The notes below the pieces were generated by a model. That model did not search any database, was not told the origin of the DNA, and saw only the letters and a program-made list of their open reading frames with translations. From positions 124,001-188,000 of the forward strand of contig NZ_RZYA01000002.1 in assembly GCF_004005495.1 (NCBI RefSeq): a DNA stretch of 64,000 bases, given 5' to 3'. Within the stretch, counting starts at the first letter, position 1; every line of letters begins with the position of its first letter. The stretch comes from Streptomyces antnestii. Lineage in GTDB: Bacteria > Actinomycetota > Actinomycetes > Streptomycetales > Streptomycetaceae. The position numbers were made by a program, and so were the translations under genes. Of the stretch, positions 2,066 to 50,790 are shown in pieces.

Positions 2066-3547
2066 TCAGTCCGCCGTGCGGACCCGCGCGCGGCGCCCCA
2101 GGTTGAGCCGCAGGCCCTCGGGCATCAGCGTGAGGCGTTCCACGACGCGCAGCCGGTAGCCGGGTTCGGGGTGCAGGTCGTAGCGGCGCAGCAGCAGACC
2201 GAGGACCAACGTCGCCTCGTGCAGGGCGAATTGGCGGCCGATGCAGGCACGCGCCCCGGTGCCGAACGGCTTGAACACGTGCGGGGCGCGCGAGCGGACC
2301 GCCGCCGGAGCGAAGCGGTCGGGGTCGAAGGCCTCCGGGTCCTCGCCCCACGCCTCGGGGTCGCGGTGCAGGAGCGAGGTGAGCACCAGCGCCCACGCGC
2401 CCCTGCGCATCGGGTGCGTCCCGCCGAGCGTCGTGTCGACCGTGGCCTCGCGGGCGAACGCCGGAGCCGTCGGCCAAAGGCGCAGCGCCTCGTCGAGAAC
2501 GCGCCGCAGATAACGGAGCTTGGCGACCTGCTCGTACGCGGGCTCGTCCGTGTCGCCCCACACCCGCTCCACCTCCTCGCGCGCCTTCGCGAGGACGTCG
2601 GGGTGGTGTGCCAGATAGTGCAGCGCGAACGACAGCGCGCCCGACGTCGTCTCGTGCCCGGCCACCAGGAACGTGATGACCTGGCGCCGGATGTTCTCGG
2701 GGGACAGGCGCTCCCCGGTGTCGGGGTGGGCGACCTCCAGCATGCGGTCGAGCAGGTCGCCCTGCGCGCCGGTGGGCCGGCCGGCCCCGGCCCGGCGCGC
2801 CGCGACGACCTCGTCCACGGTCCGGTTGAGGTAGGCCATGTCCGCGGCGTTGCGCCGCTCCGCGCCCCGCAGCAGGAGGGGAGCGAGCGCCGGCGGCACG
2901 ACGTTGCGGCGCTGCGCGAACGACAGCGTCCCGACCATCGCGCTCACGAAGGGATGCGGACGCTCCCGCTCGAACGACCCGAAGTCATGGCCGAACCCGG
3001 TCCTCGCGATCGTCTCCAGGGTCAGCTTCGTCATGTCGCCGGGCACGTCGACGGCCTCGCCCGCCGCCTCCCGGGCGTCCCACGCCGCCATGAGGCGCCC
3101 GGCCACGTCGAGCATCAGCGGGTGGTACCCGGCCATGGCGTCACGGCCGAAGCCGGGCGCGAGCACGTCGTGCGCCAGCTGCCAGTTGGGCTCGTGGTTG
3201 TACGCGGTGAACAGCCCGTCACCGGCGACCGGCCGCAGGTTGGCCACTCCCAGGCCGACGTGCTTGGCGAAGCGCGACTCGTCGGCCAGGTCGGCGGCGT
3301 ACCGGGCACCCCACACGAAGACGATCTCGTTGCCGAACGCCTTGCGCCGGAAGACGGGACCGAGCTGCCTGCCGATCCTCATCGAGTCCTGGACCGGTGT
3401 GCGCACGTTCGCGCCGAGGACGTCGCCGATGAGGGGGAGGCGTCGCGGCGGGTGCGGGATCCGGTCGAGCTCCGGCCAGCCGAGCTCGGCGCTGCGAAAC
3501 CCCTTCGCCGGTGTCGAGTCCGTCGCCGGCCGCGTCAACTGAGCCAT
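2066..3547 (-). CDS. Cytochrome P450, CYP102-like heme domain without reductase
   Basis: A 493-residue P450. The oxygen-activating helix AGHETTSG lies near residue 290, and the heme loop FGTGARACIGRQ places the ligand Cys at about 435. DGLFTAYNHEPNW closely resembles the substrate-channel segment of P450 BM3. Whole stretches match the heme domain of the full CYP102 at 26414 in this window, but this protein stops where the FMN domain would begin, so it needs separate redox partners. The start at 3547 has a GGTGGGG site; an upstream in-frame ATG lacks one. It is divergent from a TetR gene across a region holding an inverted repeat, suggesting TetR control. A fatty-acid-like substrate is inferred from the family. 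Confidence 0.88.
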   Translation of the reverse strand: MAQLTRPATDSTPAKGFRSAELGWPELDRIPHPPRRLPLIGDVLGANVRTPVQDSMRIGRQLGPVFRRKAFGNEIVFVWGARYAADLADESRFAKHVGLGVANLRPVAGDGLFTAYNHEPNWQLAHDVLAPGFGRDAMAGYHPLMLDVAGRLMAAWDAREAAGEAVDVPGDMTKLTLETIARTGFGHDFGSFERERPHPFVSAMVGTLSFAQRRNVVPPALAPLLLRGAERRNAADMAYLNRTVDEVVAARRAGAGRPTGAQGDLLDRMLEVAHPDTGERLSPENIRRQVITFLVAGHETTSGALSFALHYLAHHPDVLAKAREEVERVWGDTDEPAYEQVAKLRYLRRVLDEALRLWPTAPAFAREATVDTTLGGTHPMRRGAWALVLTSLLHRDPEAWGEDPEAFDPDRFAPAAVRSRAPHVFKPFGTGARACIGRQFALHEATLVLGLLLRRYDLHPEPGYRLRVVERLTLMPEGLRLNLGRRARVRTAD

Positions 3548-3629
3548 GATCCCCACCTGTTGGACGTAGAGAGTGCCTGAACCGAGTGCCTGTACCGAGT
3601 GCCCGTACCCGACCGTTGTTATACGTGGG

Positions 3630-3664
3630 TTCAATACCGCTCCCAGTGTGGTCCCGCTATTGAA
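3630..3664. promoter_or_regulatory. Inverted repeat in P450/TetR divergent promoter
   Basis: Perfect 7-base arms TTCAATA (3630-3636) and TATTGAA (3658-3664) flank a 21-base spacer in the 159-bp gap between the divergent P450 and TetR genes. The AT-rich arms stand out against the GC-rich background. It is a candidate operator for the adjacent TetR protein; the wide spacer could mean two half-sites or two overlapping sites. Confidence 0.45.
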
Positions 3665-3706
3665 TTCGCGTCAAGTAAGCCGGGAGAGGTCGCGTAGGGT
3701 GCTGCC

Positions 3707-4327
3707 ATGTCCGCCAGGGAGCCTCGTCGGGGGCAGGAGCGCACGCGCCGTCGGCTGAGCACCGAGGAGCGCCGCGAACAGCTGCTCTGCGTGGGTGCGC
3801 GGCTCTTCGCGCAGAGCACGTACGACGACGTCTGGATCGAGCAGGTCGCCGAGATCGCCGGCGTCTCCCGGGGCCTGCTCTACCACTACTTCCCGACGAA
3901 ACGGGACTTCTTCGCCGCCGTCGTGCGGCGCGAGAGCGAGCGGATGCTGCGCCTGACCGCGGCCGTTCCCGGCGTGCCGGTGCGGGAGCAGCTCGCGGTC
4001 GGCCTCGACACGTTCCTCGGCTATGTGGCGGACCATGCCGAGGGCTTCCGCGCCTTCCACCGGGCCGAGGCCGCGGGCGACCCGGTCGTACGGGAGGTGT
4101 ACCGGCAGGGCCTGGCCGCGCAGGAACGCCAGATCGCCGCGGCCCTCGCCGCCGACCCCGGCAGCGCCCACATCGACGGCGACGCCCCGGCGCTCCGGCT
4201 CGCCGTCCGGGGCTGGCTGGCCTTCATGGTTGCCGTGTGCCTGGAGTGGCTCGACGAGCCGGAGTTGTCACGGGATCAGGTACGCGACCTGTGCGCACGG
4301 GCCCTGCTCGGGGCGATCACGCCGTAG
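3707..4327 (+). CDS. TetR/AcrR family transcriptional regulator
   Basis: A 206-residue TetR protein. The DNA-binding part is about residues 18-65, with the recognition region VAEIAGVSRGLLYHYFPTKRDFF, a textbook TetR form. The C-terminal domain looks like the TetR_C type common in actinobacteria, with a long aromatic-poor helix set. It is transcribed away from the CYP102-like P450 gene, and the shared promoter region holds an inverted repeat, so the simplest reading is a local repressor of that P450 and of itself. The inducer is unknown. Confidence 0.88.
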   Translation: MSAREPRRGQERTRRRLSTEERREQLLCVGARLFAQSTYDDVWIEQVAEIAGVSRGLLYHYFPTKRDFFAAVVRRESERMLRLTAAVPGVPVREQLAVGLDTFLGYVADHAEGFRAFHRAEAAGDPVVREVYRQGLAAQERQIAAALAADPGSAHIDGDAPALRLAVRGWLAFMVAVCLEWLDEPELSRDQVRDLCARALLGAITP

Positions 4328-22734: not shown

Positions 22735-22771
22735 GACGGCCCGGGAGCGGTGTGAGCGCTCCCGGGCCGTC
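22735..22771. terminator. Strong hairpin after the SPW-repeat gene
   Basis: A perfect 15-bp stem (GACGGCCCGGGAGCG with its complement) surrounds a 7-base loop. It lies 54 bp past the SPW gene stop on the minus strand and well upstream of the PHP gene. It very likely ends the SPW transcript and insulates the PHP gene. Confidence 0.75.
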
Positions 22772-41429: not shown

Positions 41430-41542
41430 CCTCGCACCCGGGATGACCGGAACGGAACGGACGGCGGCCTCCGCCGTCCGTTCCGCCGGTTATGACTGCC
41501 GCACGCGCCACTGGGTATCAGGATGGCTGCAGGGGAGTTACT

Positions 41543-46021: not shown

Positions 46022-46415
46022 GGCTGACCTCGCAGGCGGTATGTCTTCCTCGTGGCTTGCCAGGAACTTCCCTGGGTGACTTCCTAGGAGCTTCCCTGGA
46101 GCTTCCCTGGAGCTTCCTTCGTGATCTTCATTAGATGCCTCGGGCATCCATTCGTCCACGGGCAGACCGGCCAGTCCGGCCCCGGTGGACATCTGGCCGA
46201 ACCCCGCCGTTGTGGTGCGGCCGGGGGGGCGTCGTGTCAGGTCGGGGCGTGCCCGTGGACCGGCGCGGTGGTCGCGGCGGGCGCCCGGCGGCCGGAGCCG
46301 ATGGGGTGCCGTCGGGCGTGGCGCGGCTTGTTCCCGCCCCGCGGGCGTGTCACGCTCGCGCGCCCCGGGGAAATCCGGATGCCCGTGCGAGAAGCGGTGG
46401 GTATCGTCGCCGCAC
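46022..46415. other. 394-bp divergent intergenic region
   Basis: This region separates the CYP105 start from the FBP gene start. It contains the 11-bp repeat array (46063-46118), annotated separately. The remaining 300 bp is GC-rich with open frames on both strands by composition only; I see no gene. A GTATCG element 10 bp before the FBP GTG may be its -10. Confidence 0.4.
46063..46118. repeat. 11-bp phased repeat array upstream of CYP105
   Basis: Five copies in register: GGAACTTCCCT, GGGTGACTTCCT, then GGAGCTTCCCT twice and GGAGCTTCCT once. The spacing is 11-12 bases, close to a helical turn, placing them on one DNA face. They lie 42-97 bp upstream of the P450 start. They could be operator repeats or a strand-slippage tract. 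Confidence 0.6.
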
Positions 46416-46922
46416 GTGGAACCACTGAACGAGAAACAGATCCGGGAATCCTTCGTGAACTGCACGAAGGGCGAGGCCGCCCGGATGAAGCTCCCCCTCG
46501 ACTTCGCCGAGCTCCCCTGGGACGACCTGGACTTCCTCGGCTGGATCGACCCGGGAGCGCCCCTGCGGGCCCACCTCGTGCGCCCCCGCCCCGACGGACC
46601 GCTCGGCATCACGCTGCGGGTCCCCTCGGTGGGCCGGACCAGCGCCGTGAAGTCCAGCCTGTGCCAGGTGTGCCTGACCGGGCACGCCTCCTCCGGTGTC
46701 GCCCTCCTGGCGGCGCCCCTGGCCGGAGTGCGCGGACGGGAGGGCAACACCGTCGGCATCTACCTCTGCGCGGACCTCGCCTGCTCCCTCTACCTGCGCG
46801 GCAAGCGCCAGCCCAGGCTGCGGGCCGGCCGCTACGAGGAGTCGCTCTCGCTCGACGAGCGGATCGACCGCACCATGACCAACCTCGACGCCTTCACCGC
46901 CAAGGTCACCGGGGCGGCGTGA
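46416..46922 (+). CDS. FBP-type zinc-finger protein (FusB/EF-G-binding-like)
   Basis: A 168-residue protein with a C-terminal treble-clef zinc finger: C83-x2-C86 (SLCQVCLTGH) and a second Cys pair in YLCADLACSLYL. This is the FBP domain of FusB/FusC proteins, which bind elongation factor G and release it from fusidic acid-stalled ribosomes. Actinobacterial single-domain members are of unproved function. The GTG start (46416) has no good ribosome-binding site and may be leaderless. The last codons form half of a strong terminator hairpin. Confidence 0.8.
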   Translation: MEPLNEKQIRESFVNCTKGEAARMKLPLDFAELPWDDLDFLGWIDPGAPLRAHLVRPRPDGPLGITLRVPSVGRTSAVKSSLCQVCLTGHASSGVALLAAPLAGVRGREGNTVGIYLCADLACSLYLRGKRQPRLRAGRYEESLSLDERIDRTMTNLDAFTAKVTGAA

Positions 46923-46940
46923 TGCCGCCCCGGTGACCTT
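46902..46940. terminator. Terminator overlapping the end of the FBP coding region
   Basis: A perfect 17-bp stem with a 5-base loop (GTGAT, holding the stop codon TGA). The 5' arm at 46902-46918 is coding sequence for the last residues. It lies between convergent genes and is strong enough to serve both. Confidence 0.8.
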
Positions 46941-46966
46941 GGGTGCTACCGGCCCTTCTGCCAGCC

Positions 46967-47006
46967 CTTCTGCCGGGCCCTCTACCTCTTCTGCCGGGCC
47001 CTCTAC
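46967..47006. repeat. 19-bp direct repeat at the end of the 417-aa protein gene
   Basis: CTTCTGCCGGGCCCTCTAC occurs at 46967-46985 and again at 46988-47006, 21 bp apart. The second copy includes the stop codon of the minus-strand gene. This is probably a small tandem duplication at the 3' end; a third degenerate copy lies just before. Confidence 0.6.
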
Positions 47007-48256
47007 TGGACCTTGGCCTGGATCGCCGAGATGCAGGAGGCGATGGCCTGCTGGAGGTCTTCGAGGCGCTTGAGCATGTCGTCCTCGAAGACGTCGTCCT
47101 CGGCGTCGTCGAGCGTCAGCTCCTCGAACACCTTCGTCGCCTTCTGCAGGCTGTTGTAGAACTTCGCCCTGCGCTCCTTCACCCGCAGCTCGGGGTCGCT
47201 CTCGACGGTCCTGGTGACGAGCTCGCGGACGCTGTCGTAGGCCTCACGCGCCCACTCGCCCGCCTCCTCGTCGCCGTCCAGCTCGTCGATGAGCGAGAGG
47301 TGCCGCTCGGCCTCCTCGCGCAGCTCGCGCGGCGCCTCGATCTTCTGCCCGGCCGGCGTCCTGATCTGGCCGACCTCCGCGATCTGGCGGACGTACTCGA
47401 CCCGGTCCCCGGTCTTCGCCTCGGCGGCGACGGCCTTCTTCAGGTCGTCGGCGCGCACGATGTCCTTGACCAGCTCGGTGCGCAGCGCGGGGTCCTCCTC
47501 CAGGCGGTCCATCAGGGCCTTCCTGGCGGCCTCGGCGGTGCCGGGGTCGGCGAGGATCGCGGCGCGCAGGGCGGTCGGGTTCTCGGCGACCTCCAGGGCC
47601 TTGGTCGGGCGGATGCCCTCGGCCTCGGCGGCCGCGGAGATCGCGTGGCCGCGCGGCGAGGCGGCGCTGGAGCGGGAGGAGTAGTACGCCAACCAGACGT
47701 CGGCGTCCGGGAGTTCGACCTCCTGACCCGGGGCCAGAGCCTCGAACTGCGGGACGAGCCCGTCGTCGGCGGCGCTGTCCCAGGCCTTGTAGAAGCGCAT
47801 GACGCGCTCGGCGGAGCAGCCGGCCAGCTCGCTGAACCGCCGGGCCGAGACCTTCGGCGTCCCGCCCACGGCCTGTCCGCCGGGACGCACACTGCGCGCG
47901 ACCATGAGGGCGAAGGCCCAGCCGCCGGTCCGGGCGTAGACGCCGAAGGCGCGCGCGTCCTCGGCGACCAGCTCGGAGACCTCCGACGTGTCGTCAGCCG
48001 TGTCCTCCGCGGCGTCGTCGTCCGCGGCGTCGTCGTCCGTGACGGGGCCGGGCGCCTCGTCCGTGGCCCCGCCCGGAATCCAGATGTTCGCCTCGTCCGG
48101 CGCCTGAGCCGTTCCCGAGCCGGTCCCGGCTCCCGCCTCCGTCCCGGCTCCCGCGCCGGGGTCGGCGGACCCGGCCTGCGCCGGGACGGCCTCCTCGGAC
48201 GCGACGCCGGTCACGGCGGATTCGGTCGCTTCGGTCGGGGCGATCGCTGCGGTCAC
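47003..48256 (-). CDS. Hypothetical acidic helical protein (417 aa)
   Basis: A 417-residue protein that I do not recognise. Residues 1-95 are low complexity (Ala/Gly/Thr then Asp/Ala-rich DDDAADDDAAEDTADD), probably disordered. Residues 100-200 form a compact region (DARAFGVYARTGGWAFALMVARSV, SARRFSELAGCSAERVMRFYKAWD) that looks like an HTH-like DNA-binding fold. The rest is charged, helical and probably coiled coil. A nucleoid- or plasmid-type DNA-binding role is only a guess. ATG 48256 has a GGAG site nearby. Confidence 0.65.
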   Translation of the reverse strand: MTAAIAPTEATESAVTGVASEEAVPAQAGSADPGAGAGTEAGAGTGSGTAQAPDEANIWIPGGATDEAPGPVTDDDAADDDAAEDTADDTSEVSELVAEDARAFGVYARTGGWAFALMVARSVRPGGQAVGGTPKVSARRFSELAGCSAERVMRFYKAWDSAADDGLVPQFEALAPGQEVELPDADVWLAYYSSRSSAASPRGHAISAAAEAEGIRPTKALEVAENPTALRAAILADPGTAEAARKALMDRLEEDPALRTELVKDIVRADDLKKAVAAEAKTGDRVEYVRQIAEVGQIRTPAGQKIEAPRELREEAERHLSLIDELDGDEEAGEWAREAYDSVRELVTRTVESDPELRVKERRAKFYNSLQKATKVFEELTLDDAEDDVFEDDMLKRLEDLQQAIASCISAIQAKVQ

Positions 48257-48352: not shown

Positions 48353-50005
48353 CTACGCGCGGTGCTCGACCTTGCCGCCCACCACGACCGTCTCGGCCAC
48401 CGTGCCCGGGATGTCCTCGGGCGCGGCGCGCAGGATGTCGCGGGACAGGACCACGAAGTCCGCCGCCTTGCCGATGCTCAGCGAACCCCGCTCGTGCTCA
48501 ATGAAGTTGGCGTAGGCGGAGCCCATCGTGTACCCGTGCACCGCGGTCTCCACGTCCACGGTCTCGCCGGGCATCCAAGCCTCGCCGCCGTCCAGCGGGC
48601 GCCGCGTGACCGCCGTGTAGATGCCGACCATCGGGTCCATCTCGGCCACGTTCCAGTCGCTGGAGAAGGCCAGGACGGCACCGGACTCGTGCAGGCTGCG
48701 CATCGGCCAGGCCTTGTGCCAGCGGTCGGTGCCCACGTTCTCCGCCCAGTCCTTGCCGGGCCCGGCGACCTCGGGCGCGCAGTGCCGCGGCTGCATGCAG
48801 GCGACGACGCCGAGCGCGGCGAAGCGCGCGGTGTCGGCGGGGTCGAGGCACTCGACGTGGACGACCTGGTGGCGGGCGTCCCGCTCGCCGTTGGCCGTAC
48901 GGGCGTGCTCGACGGCGTCGAGGACCGTACGGATGCCGCGGTCGCCCGTCGCGTGGACGAAGCACTGGAAGCCGCGCGCGTCGAGCTTGGCGAGCAGGTC
49001 CGCGAACTCCTCCGGCGGGTAGAAGGTCTCCCCGCGGTGGTGGCCGCAGCCCGCGTACGGCTCCAGGAGCGCGGCGGTGCGCGGCTCGACGACGTCGTCG
49101 ATGTAGAGCTTCAGCGGTCCCACGCGCAGCCGGTCGTCCGCGTGGCGCTCCGCCGCCGCGGCGAAGTCGTCGAGGTCGGCGTCGGTGGTGCCGCGCGGGT
49201 GGAAGAGCGCGGCGACGATGCGCGAGCGGAGCCGGCCCTCGGAGCGGGCACGCTCGTACAGGGCGAGGTCGTCGAGCGAGTTCTGCGGCTCGACGACGGT
49301 CGTGATGCCGAAGCGGATCGCGTCGTCGAGGGACTTGGCGAGACGCCCGTACTGCCGGTCGGCCGAGGCCCACGGCACACCCAGCTGCTGCAGTGCGCGG
49401 TGCCCGTCGCGCGACAGGCCCTTCACGGCGAAGTCCTTGACGAATCCGGTGGGTTCACCGGTCCCGGGGTCGGTCGCGGCCTCGCCGAACGGCAGGCTCG
49501 TGCGGTCCTTGTCGATGCCGAGGCGGCGCAGCGCGGCCGTGTTCAGCCAGGCGGTGTGCACGTCGTAGCTGAGGACGAACGCGGGCGTGTCGCCGGTCAC
49601 CGGGTCGAGGTCGGCGGCGGTGGGCATGCGGCCGCCGGGGATCGCCGAGTAGTCGAACGCCTCCGCCTCGATCCACGCGGCGCCCGGGTGCGCGCCCCGC
49701 CACGCGCGGATCCGGTCGTGGATCTCGTCGAGGGTGTCCGCGCCGGCCAGCTGCACGCACGCGTCGTCGGAGCCGAGGCGTACGTGGTTGTGGGCGTCGA
49801 TGAAGCCGGGCAGGACCAGCTTGCCGCCGGCGTCGAGGACCTCGGTGCCGGGCCCCGTCCAGGCGTCGGCGTCCGCGTCGGCCCCGAGCCAGACGATCTT
49901 CCCGTCGCGCACGGCCAGTGCCTGCGCCTCGGGCAGGGCCGGGTCGACGGTGTGGACGCGCGCGCCGCGCAGGACGAGGTCGGCGGGGGCGGGGGAGTGG
50001 GACAT
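48353..50005 (-). CDS. Amidohydrolase family protein (YtcJ-like)
   Basis: A 550-residue metal-dependent hydrolase of the amidohydrolase_3 group. The N-terminal beta-sandwich region precedes the HxH metal motif in PGFIDAHNHVRLGSDD; CFVHATGDRGIRTVLDA and VVHVECLDPAD hold later His ligands, and FSSDWNVAEMDP holds the Asp. Substrates of YtcJ-like proteins are mostly unknown. The start ATG 50005 is chosen at MSHSPAP. The nested inverted repeat between this gene and the divergent TetR gene suggests strict local repression. Confidence 0.88.
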   Translation of the reverse strand: MSHSPAPADLVLRGARVHTVDPALPEAQALAVRDGKIVWLGADADADAWTGPGTEVLDAGGKLVLPGFIDAHNHVRLGSDDACVQLAGADTLDEIHDRIRAWRGAHPGAAWIEAEAFDYSAIPGGRMPTAADLDPVTGDTPAFVLSYDVHTAWLNTAALRRLGIDKDRTSLPFGEAATDPGTGEPTGFVKDFAVKGLSRDGHRALQQLGVPWASADRQYGRLAKSLDDAIRFGITTVVEPQNSLDDLALYERARSEGRLRSRIVAALFHPRGTTDADLDDFAAAAERHADDRLRVGPLKLYIDDVVEPRTAALLEPYAGCGHHRGETFYPPEEFADLLAKLDARGFQCFVHATGDRGIRTVLDAVEHARTANGERDARHQVVHVECLDPADTARFAALGVVACMQPRHCAPEVAGPGKDWAENVGTDRWHKAWPMRSLHESGAVLAFSSDWNVAEMDPMVGIYTAVTRRPLDGGEAWMPGETVDVETAVHGYTMGSAYANFIEHERGSLSIGKAADFVVLSRDILRAAPEDIPGTVAETVVVGGKVEHRA

Positions 50006-50039
50006 CAGCGGAAACTCCTGGGAAGTCGCACCGGAACGA

Positions 50040-50082
50040 CATCTTGAATGCCGTTCTAGCTTCTTGAACGGCATTCAAGATG
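50040..50082. promoter_or_regulatory. Nested TetR-type operator pair
   Basis: A perfect 17-bp inverted repeat: CATCTTGAATGCCGTTC (50040-50056) and its exact complement at 50066-50082, with a 9-base spacer. The right half contains a second palindrome, CTTGAA-CGGCA-TTCAAG, and the left half a one-mismatch copy, CTTGAA-TGCCG-TTCTAG. This reads as two TetR dimer sites side by side, 35 bp upstream of the amidohydrolase start. Confidence 0.75.
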
Positions 50083-50187
50083 CGCCTCCGCGTCGCATAC
50101 GTCAAGACCCCCCAGGGAAATCGCCGGATAGGGTCAGGGCCTCGGGAGCACGGATCGGTCGGGACCACGGATCAGGGAGGCGCGGCG

Positions 50188-50790
50188 GTGGCGGCTACGG
50201 CGCGACGGCGCGACGGACAGGTCGCCCAGGAGCGGATGCTGGAGGAGGCGATGACGGCCATCGCCGAGGACGGCCTCGCGTCGCTCACGATGTCGGCGCT
50301 CGGCAAGCGCCTCGGCACCAGCGGCGGCCACATCCTGTACTACTTCGGCAGCAAGGACCGGCTGCTCCTCGAAGCCCTGCGCTGGAGCGAGAGCGGCCTC
50401 GCCGACGAGCGCAGGGCGCTCCTGAACAGGCGCGTCACCGCCGACCGCAAACTCGACCAGTTCATGGAGCTGTACCTGCCGCGCGGACCGCGCGACCCGC
50501 GATGGACGCTGTGGATCGAACTGTGGGCCCGCACCTCCGCCGACGAGGCGCTGCGGCAGGCCCAGGACGAGCTGGACCGGGGCTGGCAGGAAGACCTCGT
50601 CTCGCTCCTGGACAAGGGGGTCCGGCAGGGGCGGTTCGCCCCTCTCGACGCCGCCGAGTGCGCCTCCCAACTCCTCGCCCTGCTGGACGGGTTGAGTACC
50701 CGCATCGTGCTCGGCCAGCGCGGGTCCGAGCGGTCCGCCGTGCTGGCCACGGCCCGGTCCGCGGCGCGGCGGCTTGTGGCGCGGACCTAG
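50188..50790 (+). CDS. TetR/AcrR family regulator
   Basis: A 200-residue TetR protein. The HTH is in AMTAIAEDGLASLTMSALGKRLGTSGGHILYYFGSK, about residues 17-55. The C-terminal domain resembles the BetI/TetR_C_6 type. The start GTG 50188 follows AGGGAGG. It is divergent from the amidohydrolase, with a nested operator pair between. The stop codon TAG supplies the first two bases (AG) of a MITE-like element, so the element inserted right at the end of this gene; the reading frame is intact. Confidence 0.87.
   Translation: MAATARRRDGQVAQERMLEEAMTAIAEDGLASLTMSALGKRLGTSGGHILYYFGSKDRLLLEALRWSESGLADERRALLNRRVTADRKLDQFMELYLPRGPRDPRWTLWIELWARTSADEALRQAQDELDRGWQEDLVSLLDKGVRQGRFAPLDAAECASQLLALLDGLSTRIVLGQRGSERSAVLATARSAARRLVART

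Follow-up and report, generated by a model that had tools for sequence, protein, structure and literature searches.

TetR-type operators present in several copies are already known, as the tet pair and SCO7222 illustrate (PMC3511530). In the classical tetR/tetA system, as that source describes it, two 15-bp operators lie in the divergent intergenic region, one proximal to tetR and the other to tetA, and both genes are repressed. The same source reports five tested Streptomyces TetR regulators encoded less than 200 bp from a divergent neighbor, all of which repressed that neighbor. It also describes the SCO7222/SCO7223 pair of S. coelicolor, in which a TetR regulator lies less than 200 bp from its divergent target, a monooxygenase, and forms three complexes in EMSA with its three 15-bp palindromes (TGGAACGNCGTTCCA), of which two lie closer to the regulator gene and the third closer to the target; the sites were footprinted and the regulator represses. 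Another arrangement is that of QacR and CprB, where two dimers occupy opposite sides of one site of 22 to 32 bp (PMC4150764), and MAB_4384 is described with one 27-bp palindrome (PMC5895659).

The locus studied here, with 182 bp between the start codons of an amidohydrolase gene and a divergent tetR gene and with two palindromic units in between, falls in the class of divergent TetR regulators at less than 200 bp (PMC3511530). It resembles tetR/tetA in having two 15-bp units between divergent genes, but these are in tandem at 20 bp on one promoter. It shares with SCO7222/SCO7223 the short divergent spacing and several 15-bp palindromes with a GAACGNCGTTC core, and differs in the half-site (TTGAAC/T here, TGGAAC there; PMC3511530). 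An orthology with SCO7222 was considered and is unlikely: the TetR genes found beside TGGAACGNCGTTCCA sites in two genomes (G069 and G021) encode another recognition helix, and SCO7222, judged through these genes, probably belongs to a different subfamily. None of the titles among the literature matches listed names the present system, which may still exist in print, and the matches for the operator letters were unrelated by title. The sequence-only reading had presented the symmetric pair as unusually regular. The layout is indeed very regular, but it is not of a new kind given the multiple 15-bp operators of SCO7222 (PMC3511530), and the pair is best described as an ordinary TetR operator that is well supported and whose double layout is very regular.

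A repeat made of two putative operator units

The features of the locus are given in Table 1. The inverted repeat at 50040-50082 has two fully complementary 17-bp arms (50040-50056 and 50066-50082) separated by a 9-bp spacer, as the sequence-only reading had it, and extends inward to 20-bp arms with one mismatch. The perfect CTTGAA-N5-TTCAAG that it placed in the right arm and the one-mismatch copy that it placed in the left arm were both recovered, as two units lying 20 bp apart from center to center. In the window, i.e., the whole 64-kb stretch of DNA that was analyzed, there are four perfect inverted repeats with arms of at least 15 bp and loops of up to 30, this one being the second longest, vs none in each of 20 windows simulated with a first-order Markov model. 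The perfect right-unit pattern occurs in a single place of the whole 8.93-Mb genome. When up to two mismatches were allowed, both units matched with none (the left one with one on the opposite strand), and every remaining match in the genome had two; the totals were 12 forward and 12 reverse matches, vs 8 and 14 for the pattern read backward. A genome-wide regulon was hence rejected in this genome: matches without mismatches are restricted to the two units, those with two mismatches are at the level of the control, and the system was treated as having a single locus.

Table 1. Coordinates of the features at the locus, numbered from the first letter of the window
Feature	Position	Strand	Remarks
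Amidohydrolase, Amidohydro_3 (YtcJ-like) metal hydrolase, 550 aa	48353-50005	-	Pfam PF07969, 302.7 bits
AGGAG, likely ribosome-binding site of the amidohydrolase	50015-50019	-	similar to AGGAGTTACC, which precedes the hydrolase in G347 and G200
Left operator unit CTTGAATGCCGTTCTAG	50043-50059	.	one mismatched pair; outer half TTGAA, inner half TAGAA
15-bp core of the left unit TTGAATGCCGTTCTA	50044-50058
Right operator unit CTTGAACGGCATTCAAG	50063-50079	.	perfect palindrome; core 50064-50078; overlaps the -10
Likely -10 CATCTT of the amidohydrolase promoter (permease-amidohydrolase in most relatives)	50077-50082	-
Likely -35 TTGACG	50100-50105	-	conserved block; 17-bp spacer here
Possible tetR -10 TAGGGT	50129-50134	+	outside the operators; weak evidence
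TetR-family regulator, GTG start, 200 aa	50188-50790	+	Pfam TetR_N 42.3 bits, TetR_C_6 76.2 bits

Conservation and co-occurrence of operator and regulator

We searched 100 genomes, including this one, and found TetR orthologues with 69-77% identity in 12 others, with a clear step down to paralogues at 44-51%. Both units are present at all 12 orthologous loci, and among the genomes searched for both proteins, an orthologue of the amidohydrolase (at least 82%) occurs in exactly the 13 genomes, this one included, that have the TetR orthologue. A pattern for the paired operator was then built from 13 of the loci counted below, with up to three mismatches allowed and with GAA and the 5-bp gap fixed up to these. 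It was present in 65 of 392 Streptomyces genomes, vs 0 of 392 for the reversed pattern. The TetR orthologue (E of at most 1e-60) was present in 66, the two together in 64, and neither in the other 325 at these thresholds. The search for TetR is independent of the loci from which the pattern was derived, while the operator count is not. Among the discordant loci, the TetR match of G263 spans residues 9-118 only, in G142 both units are present, with a gap of 4 bp and centers 19 bp apart, and G191 has a degenerate pair with 21 bp between centers. Two sites therefore lie upstream of tetR at 67 of 67 loci, one pair being degenerate and 65 having the 20-bp spacing. The comparative check that had been proposed for the symmetry, its persistence in orthologous regions, thus came out in its favor, and the conservation indicates that the pair is not due to chance. 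A second collection of named genomes from GTDB gave two sites at 80 of 80 TetR loci, 79 of them through the pattern; at L207, two one-mismatch sites at 20 bp were recognized on inspection. This collection shares many genomes with the set of 392 and is not independent of it. We found no operator beside the 55-56% relatives of the amidohydrolase in other genera (L170 and L171), and no match to TetR or the permease in these stretches at E of at most 1e-3.

The tight association bears on which protein binds the sites. This genome has 21 further TetR relatives at E of at most 0.001 (22 matches in all), any of which might in principle act here instead of the adjacent regulator. However, 64 of the 67 loci have both the operator and this TetR at the thresholds, as all 67 do when inspected, and the nearest paralogue comes with variant sites of its own, located next to the cluster to which it belongs, so that we give hardly any credence to another regulator.

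The operator was aligned using 60 distinct sequences from the 65 loci, leaving out G142 and G191. Conservation peaks in the two operator cores, where most columns carry 1.8-2.0 bits, and in the -10 and -35, with the left flank mostly below 0.45 bit. The two units are inverted copies of one slightly asymmetric site, with a fixed outer half and a more variable inner half. The outer half of the right unit is TTCAA in 60 of 60 sequences. The inner half of the left unit is TTCTA in 56 of the 60, i.e., its mismatch is itself kept. Some genomes have additional sites: G270 (L116) has three units, the third continuing the 20-bp phase, and in G200 and G304 an extra weaker site, with two and one mismatches, respectively, overlaps the left unit.

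The whole element could alternatively be one operator for a single dimer-of-dimers assembly of the QacR/CprB type, with the dimers on opposite sides of the DNA. It has a global dyad, its units are inverted copies, TetR proteins binding in this manner are known with operators of 22 to 32 bp (PMC4150764), and two TetR-type dimers on one regulatory element are what we predict here too. In contrast to the one site of these proteins, the two units here are separable. Each is a near-palindrome of 15-17 bp, the size of an operator for a single dimer (15 bp in TetR, 17 in SimR, and 17 in DesT, according to PMC4150764). Moreover, the spacing varies between 19, 20, and 21 bp, three units occur in G270, and the units of the paralogous clade described below are mostly 68-69 bp apart. 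Such an assembly is quite improbable in our view, and by its letters the element falls outside the QacR/CprB operator class.

A further alternative would be for the repeat to function as an RNA hairpin or a DNA cruciform, for instance in attenuation in the leader of the amidohydrolase. The leader strand of the window does fold strongly, at -47.7 kcal/mol (z of -4.15, with 0 of 200 shuffles as stable). Yet all 15 arm pairs are kept in only 7 of 46 distinct sequences (9 with G-U), while the six variable column pairs tested from arm to arm all stay within their shuffles, the best being reached in 167 of 1,000. The center column has 19 of 46, vs 18.3 expected. In addition, transcription from the predicted start, which is within the right arm, would not yield the full hairpin, and no terminator-like site was found. 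A hairpin or cruciform is thus extremely improbable, and we rejected it: the fold is strong here, yet covariation is absent across the 46 sequences. More generally, no tested column pair, arm to arm or within the dyad of a unit, covaried above shuffles, which fits contacts with a protein rather than base pairing. Without covariation within the units, their symmetry is not separately proven by compensating changes.

The promoter and a proposed mechanism

The motif TTGACN-N17/18-CAT(C/T)TT is found on the minus strand in 64 of 65 loci, with CATCTT in 61 of those; the spacer is 18 bp in 53 loci and 17 bp in 11, and L123 lacks the usual spacing of -35 and -10. A scan with the sigma-70 consensus gave no promoter above threshold and left the -10 unflagged, hence the promoter claim rests on conservation. 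The predicted start of transcription is near 50070 on the minus strand. The right unit overlaps the -10 and this predicted start, and the left unit would lie approximately between +13 and +27 in the transcript starting there. The sequence-only reading had placed the operators at the promoter of the amidohydrolase: their overlap with a conserved promoter stands, but the usual target is a permease-amidohydrolase operon. On the other side, a TA(A/G)GGT hexamer downstream of the operator is loosely conserved (27 of 65 loci). This candidate -10 of tetR is located downstream of the operators, at a distance of about 50 bp and without overlap, which makes no clear case for autoregulation of tetR.

Very probably, the 43-bp repeat serves two dimers of the divergently encoded TetR-family repressor as a double operator, and these would shut the promoter on the amidohydrolase side. 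The operator role that had been predicted from the palindromes gains weight from the pair conserved in 67 of 67 loci, from its overlap with the conserved promoter, and from the 15-bp unit common to the paralogous clade. We propose that each unit of 15-17 bp (TWGAAYGNCRTTCWA) binds one dimer of the adjacent TetR. The units being about two helical turns apart, two dimers could lie next to each other, facing roughly the same side of the helix. Bound over the -10, the start, and the early leader, they would exclude RNA polymerase or block it, until a small and probably nitrogen-containing ligand releases them. In most relatives this promoter would drive an NCS1 permease and then the amidohydrolase, and in this genome the hydrolase directly.

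The regulator and the hydrolase

The most likely start codons are the ATG at 50005 (minus strand) for the amidohydrolase and the GTG at 50188 (plus strand) for tetR, both picked by eye from the ribosome-binding sites. The regulator has the helix-turn-helix of TetR_N (PF00440, 42.3 bits vs a cut-off of 24), with a recognition helix at about residues 44-53 (TSGGHILYYF). Its AlphaFold2 model (pLDDT of 92) has nine helices in the all-helical TetR fold, including the ligand-binding domain at the C terminus, and its nearest PDB entries are 4jnn, 4ich, 4nel, and 4kwa, with TM scores of 0.83-0.86 on the query. Among these, 4jnn and 4kwa are regulators of S. viridis, about 30% identical to ours, that were solved with benzamidine or choline. 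This gives a weak hint that the ligand may be nitrogen-containing and cationic. An identification with BetI, the choline-responsive repressor, was rejected, since the NCBIfam equivalog scores 66.5 bits vs a cut-off of 201.3; the two share only the type of C-terminal domain, TetR_C_6.

The PF07969 profile aligns to the hydrolase over positions 1-470 of 472, making it a member of Amidohydro_3. H71 and H73 of its HNH (HxH) metal motif, as well as D449 (all numbered without the start Met), are invariant in an alignment of 23 sequences. Its relatives are 82-88% identical in the 12 genomes and 75-96% identical in 62 other loci with a match. The nearest structures to its model (pLDDT of 86, with a low segment at 306-325) are two uncharacterized Pyrococcus hydrolases, followed by imidazolonepropionase, adenosine deaminase, and triazine hydrolases. 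Together with the family of the permease, these neighbors suggest a small nitrogen-containing compound as the substrate, which they do not fix.

The predicted target operon and the loss of the permease

The gene directly behind the promoter encodes an NCS1-type permease in 63 of 67 loci (the copy of G041 matches PF02133), and the amidohydrolase was matched in 63 of 67, either next after the permease or in the place of a missing one. Matches are partial for the permease in L035 and L133 and for the hydrolase in L109 and L110. Of the four loci without hydrolase, two end at a contig edge, G012 has its hydrolase elsewhere, and the 19 kb read of G124 contain no hydrolase. A second operator for the amidohydrolase of G012 was sought in the surrounding 17 kb (L159), where none was found.

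This genome has no orthologue of the permease, its best relative being at 36%. The closest sampled relatives, G200 and G347 (92-93% for TetR and 95-96% for the hydrolase), keep it. The permease is also missing in G125, which shares an identical hydrolase with S. violens. In the collection of 80 named loci, those without permease are from S. violens, S. ochraceiscleroticus, and Streptomyces sp. B-S-A6. In G142 (L160), which has no permease, the start codon of the hydrolase comes directly behind the operator with 19-bp spacing. In G191 (L161), there is no NCS1 permease, and a transporter of the amino-acid-permease type (2653-4215; PF13520, 114.9 bits) sits between the degenerate operator pair and the hydrolase. 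A tree of the hydrolase, obtained by a quick search without the short rows L109 and L133, has five changes of permease state; its extreme branch, L110 (G263), is probably an out-of-frame reading and an artefact. The loss in this genome would be one of about five such changes. The operator abuts the hydrolase here because the permease was lost. Both operators were kept, as were the promoter and a ribosome-binding region that resembles the one of the G347 and G200 hydrolases.

A more speculative proposal starts from the roughly five losses or replacements of the permease, through which TetR, operator, and hydrolase persisted. On this view, the inducer would come from within the cell or through another route, the switch could guard an internal nitrogen-rich metabolite, in salvage or metabolite repair, instead of a nutrient imported by the permease, and the operator and helix differences from the paralogous clade (see below) could form a specificity code; we regard this combined proposal as rather unlikely. 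If true, the code would keep two paralogous switches apart in one cell.

A paralogous TetR clade with variant sites

The paralogous TetR proteins (44-51% identical) are encoded next to agmatine deiminase, and most of the loci read also have urease-like genes and an NCS1 permease. In this genome, the paralogous TetR (L044, G000:C1, 9165-14911) is clustered with urease-like genes and agmatine deiminase, the NCS1 permease being divergent, and the cluster has two single sites of 15 bp that follow the same grammar but have GAG half-sites. The same 15-bp motif, with at most one mismatch, occurs near the promoters of these genes in 27 of 28 paralogue loci: 24 have two sites, two have one, and one has three. 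L276 is cut at a contig end, and one distant match of L044 was dropped. There are 54 matches in the 28 real stretches (410 kb), vs 0-3 in each of 10 simulations. Unlike the tandem units of the orthologues, these are single sites, and 18 of their 26 spacings are of 68-69 bp.

The two clades also differ in their half-sites, which are GAG in 88 of 106 cases among the paralogues and always GAA in the 60 orthologue sequences; the paralogue pattern allowed either base, and the orthologue pattern was built on GAA with mismatches allowed. The recognition helix is TSGGHIL in the orthologues, with S45, G46, G47, and H48 in 67 of 67, T44 in 65, and I49 in 66, vs MSSGHLL in the paralogues, with M44 and S46 in 18 of 18 and L49 in 16 of 18 (18 of the 28 loci were compared). 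The change from A to G in the operator is linked with T44M, G46S, and I49L between the clades, a correlation only, as further residues of the domain also differ. Our literature search found no paper on recognition-helix crosstalk. The paralogue pair would allow testing how TetR proteins tell near-identical operators apart. A local palindrome has led here to a predicted switch that is carried by 67 of the 392 Streptomyces genomes in the sample and for which operator, promoter, and target operon are defined. Its natural variants (spacings of 19, 20, and 21 bp, three units, and loci without permease) make a series for the effects of spacing and copy number on repression by TetR. The regular 20-bp tandem, these spacing variants, and the repeated loss of the permease may perhaps be useful to specialists.

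Other inverted repeats of the window

The longest perfect inverted repeat of the window lies at 46900-46942, with 19-bp arms and a 5-bp loop. It overlaps the stop of a plus-strand ORF (46185-46922), opposite a convergent minus-strand ORF (47003-48256), and is probably a terminator. Perfect 15-bp inverted repeats are also found at 22735-22771 and 41453-41485, beyond what the 20 simulated windows yielded.
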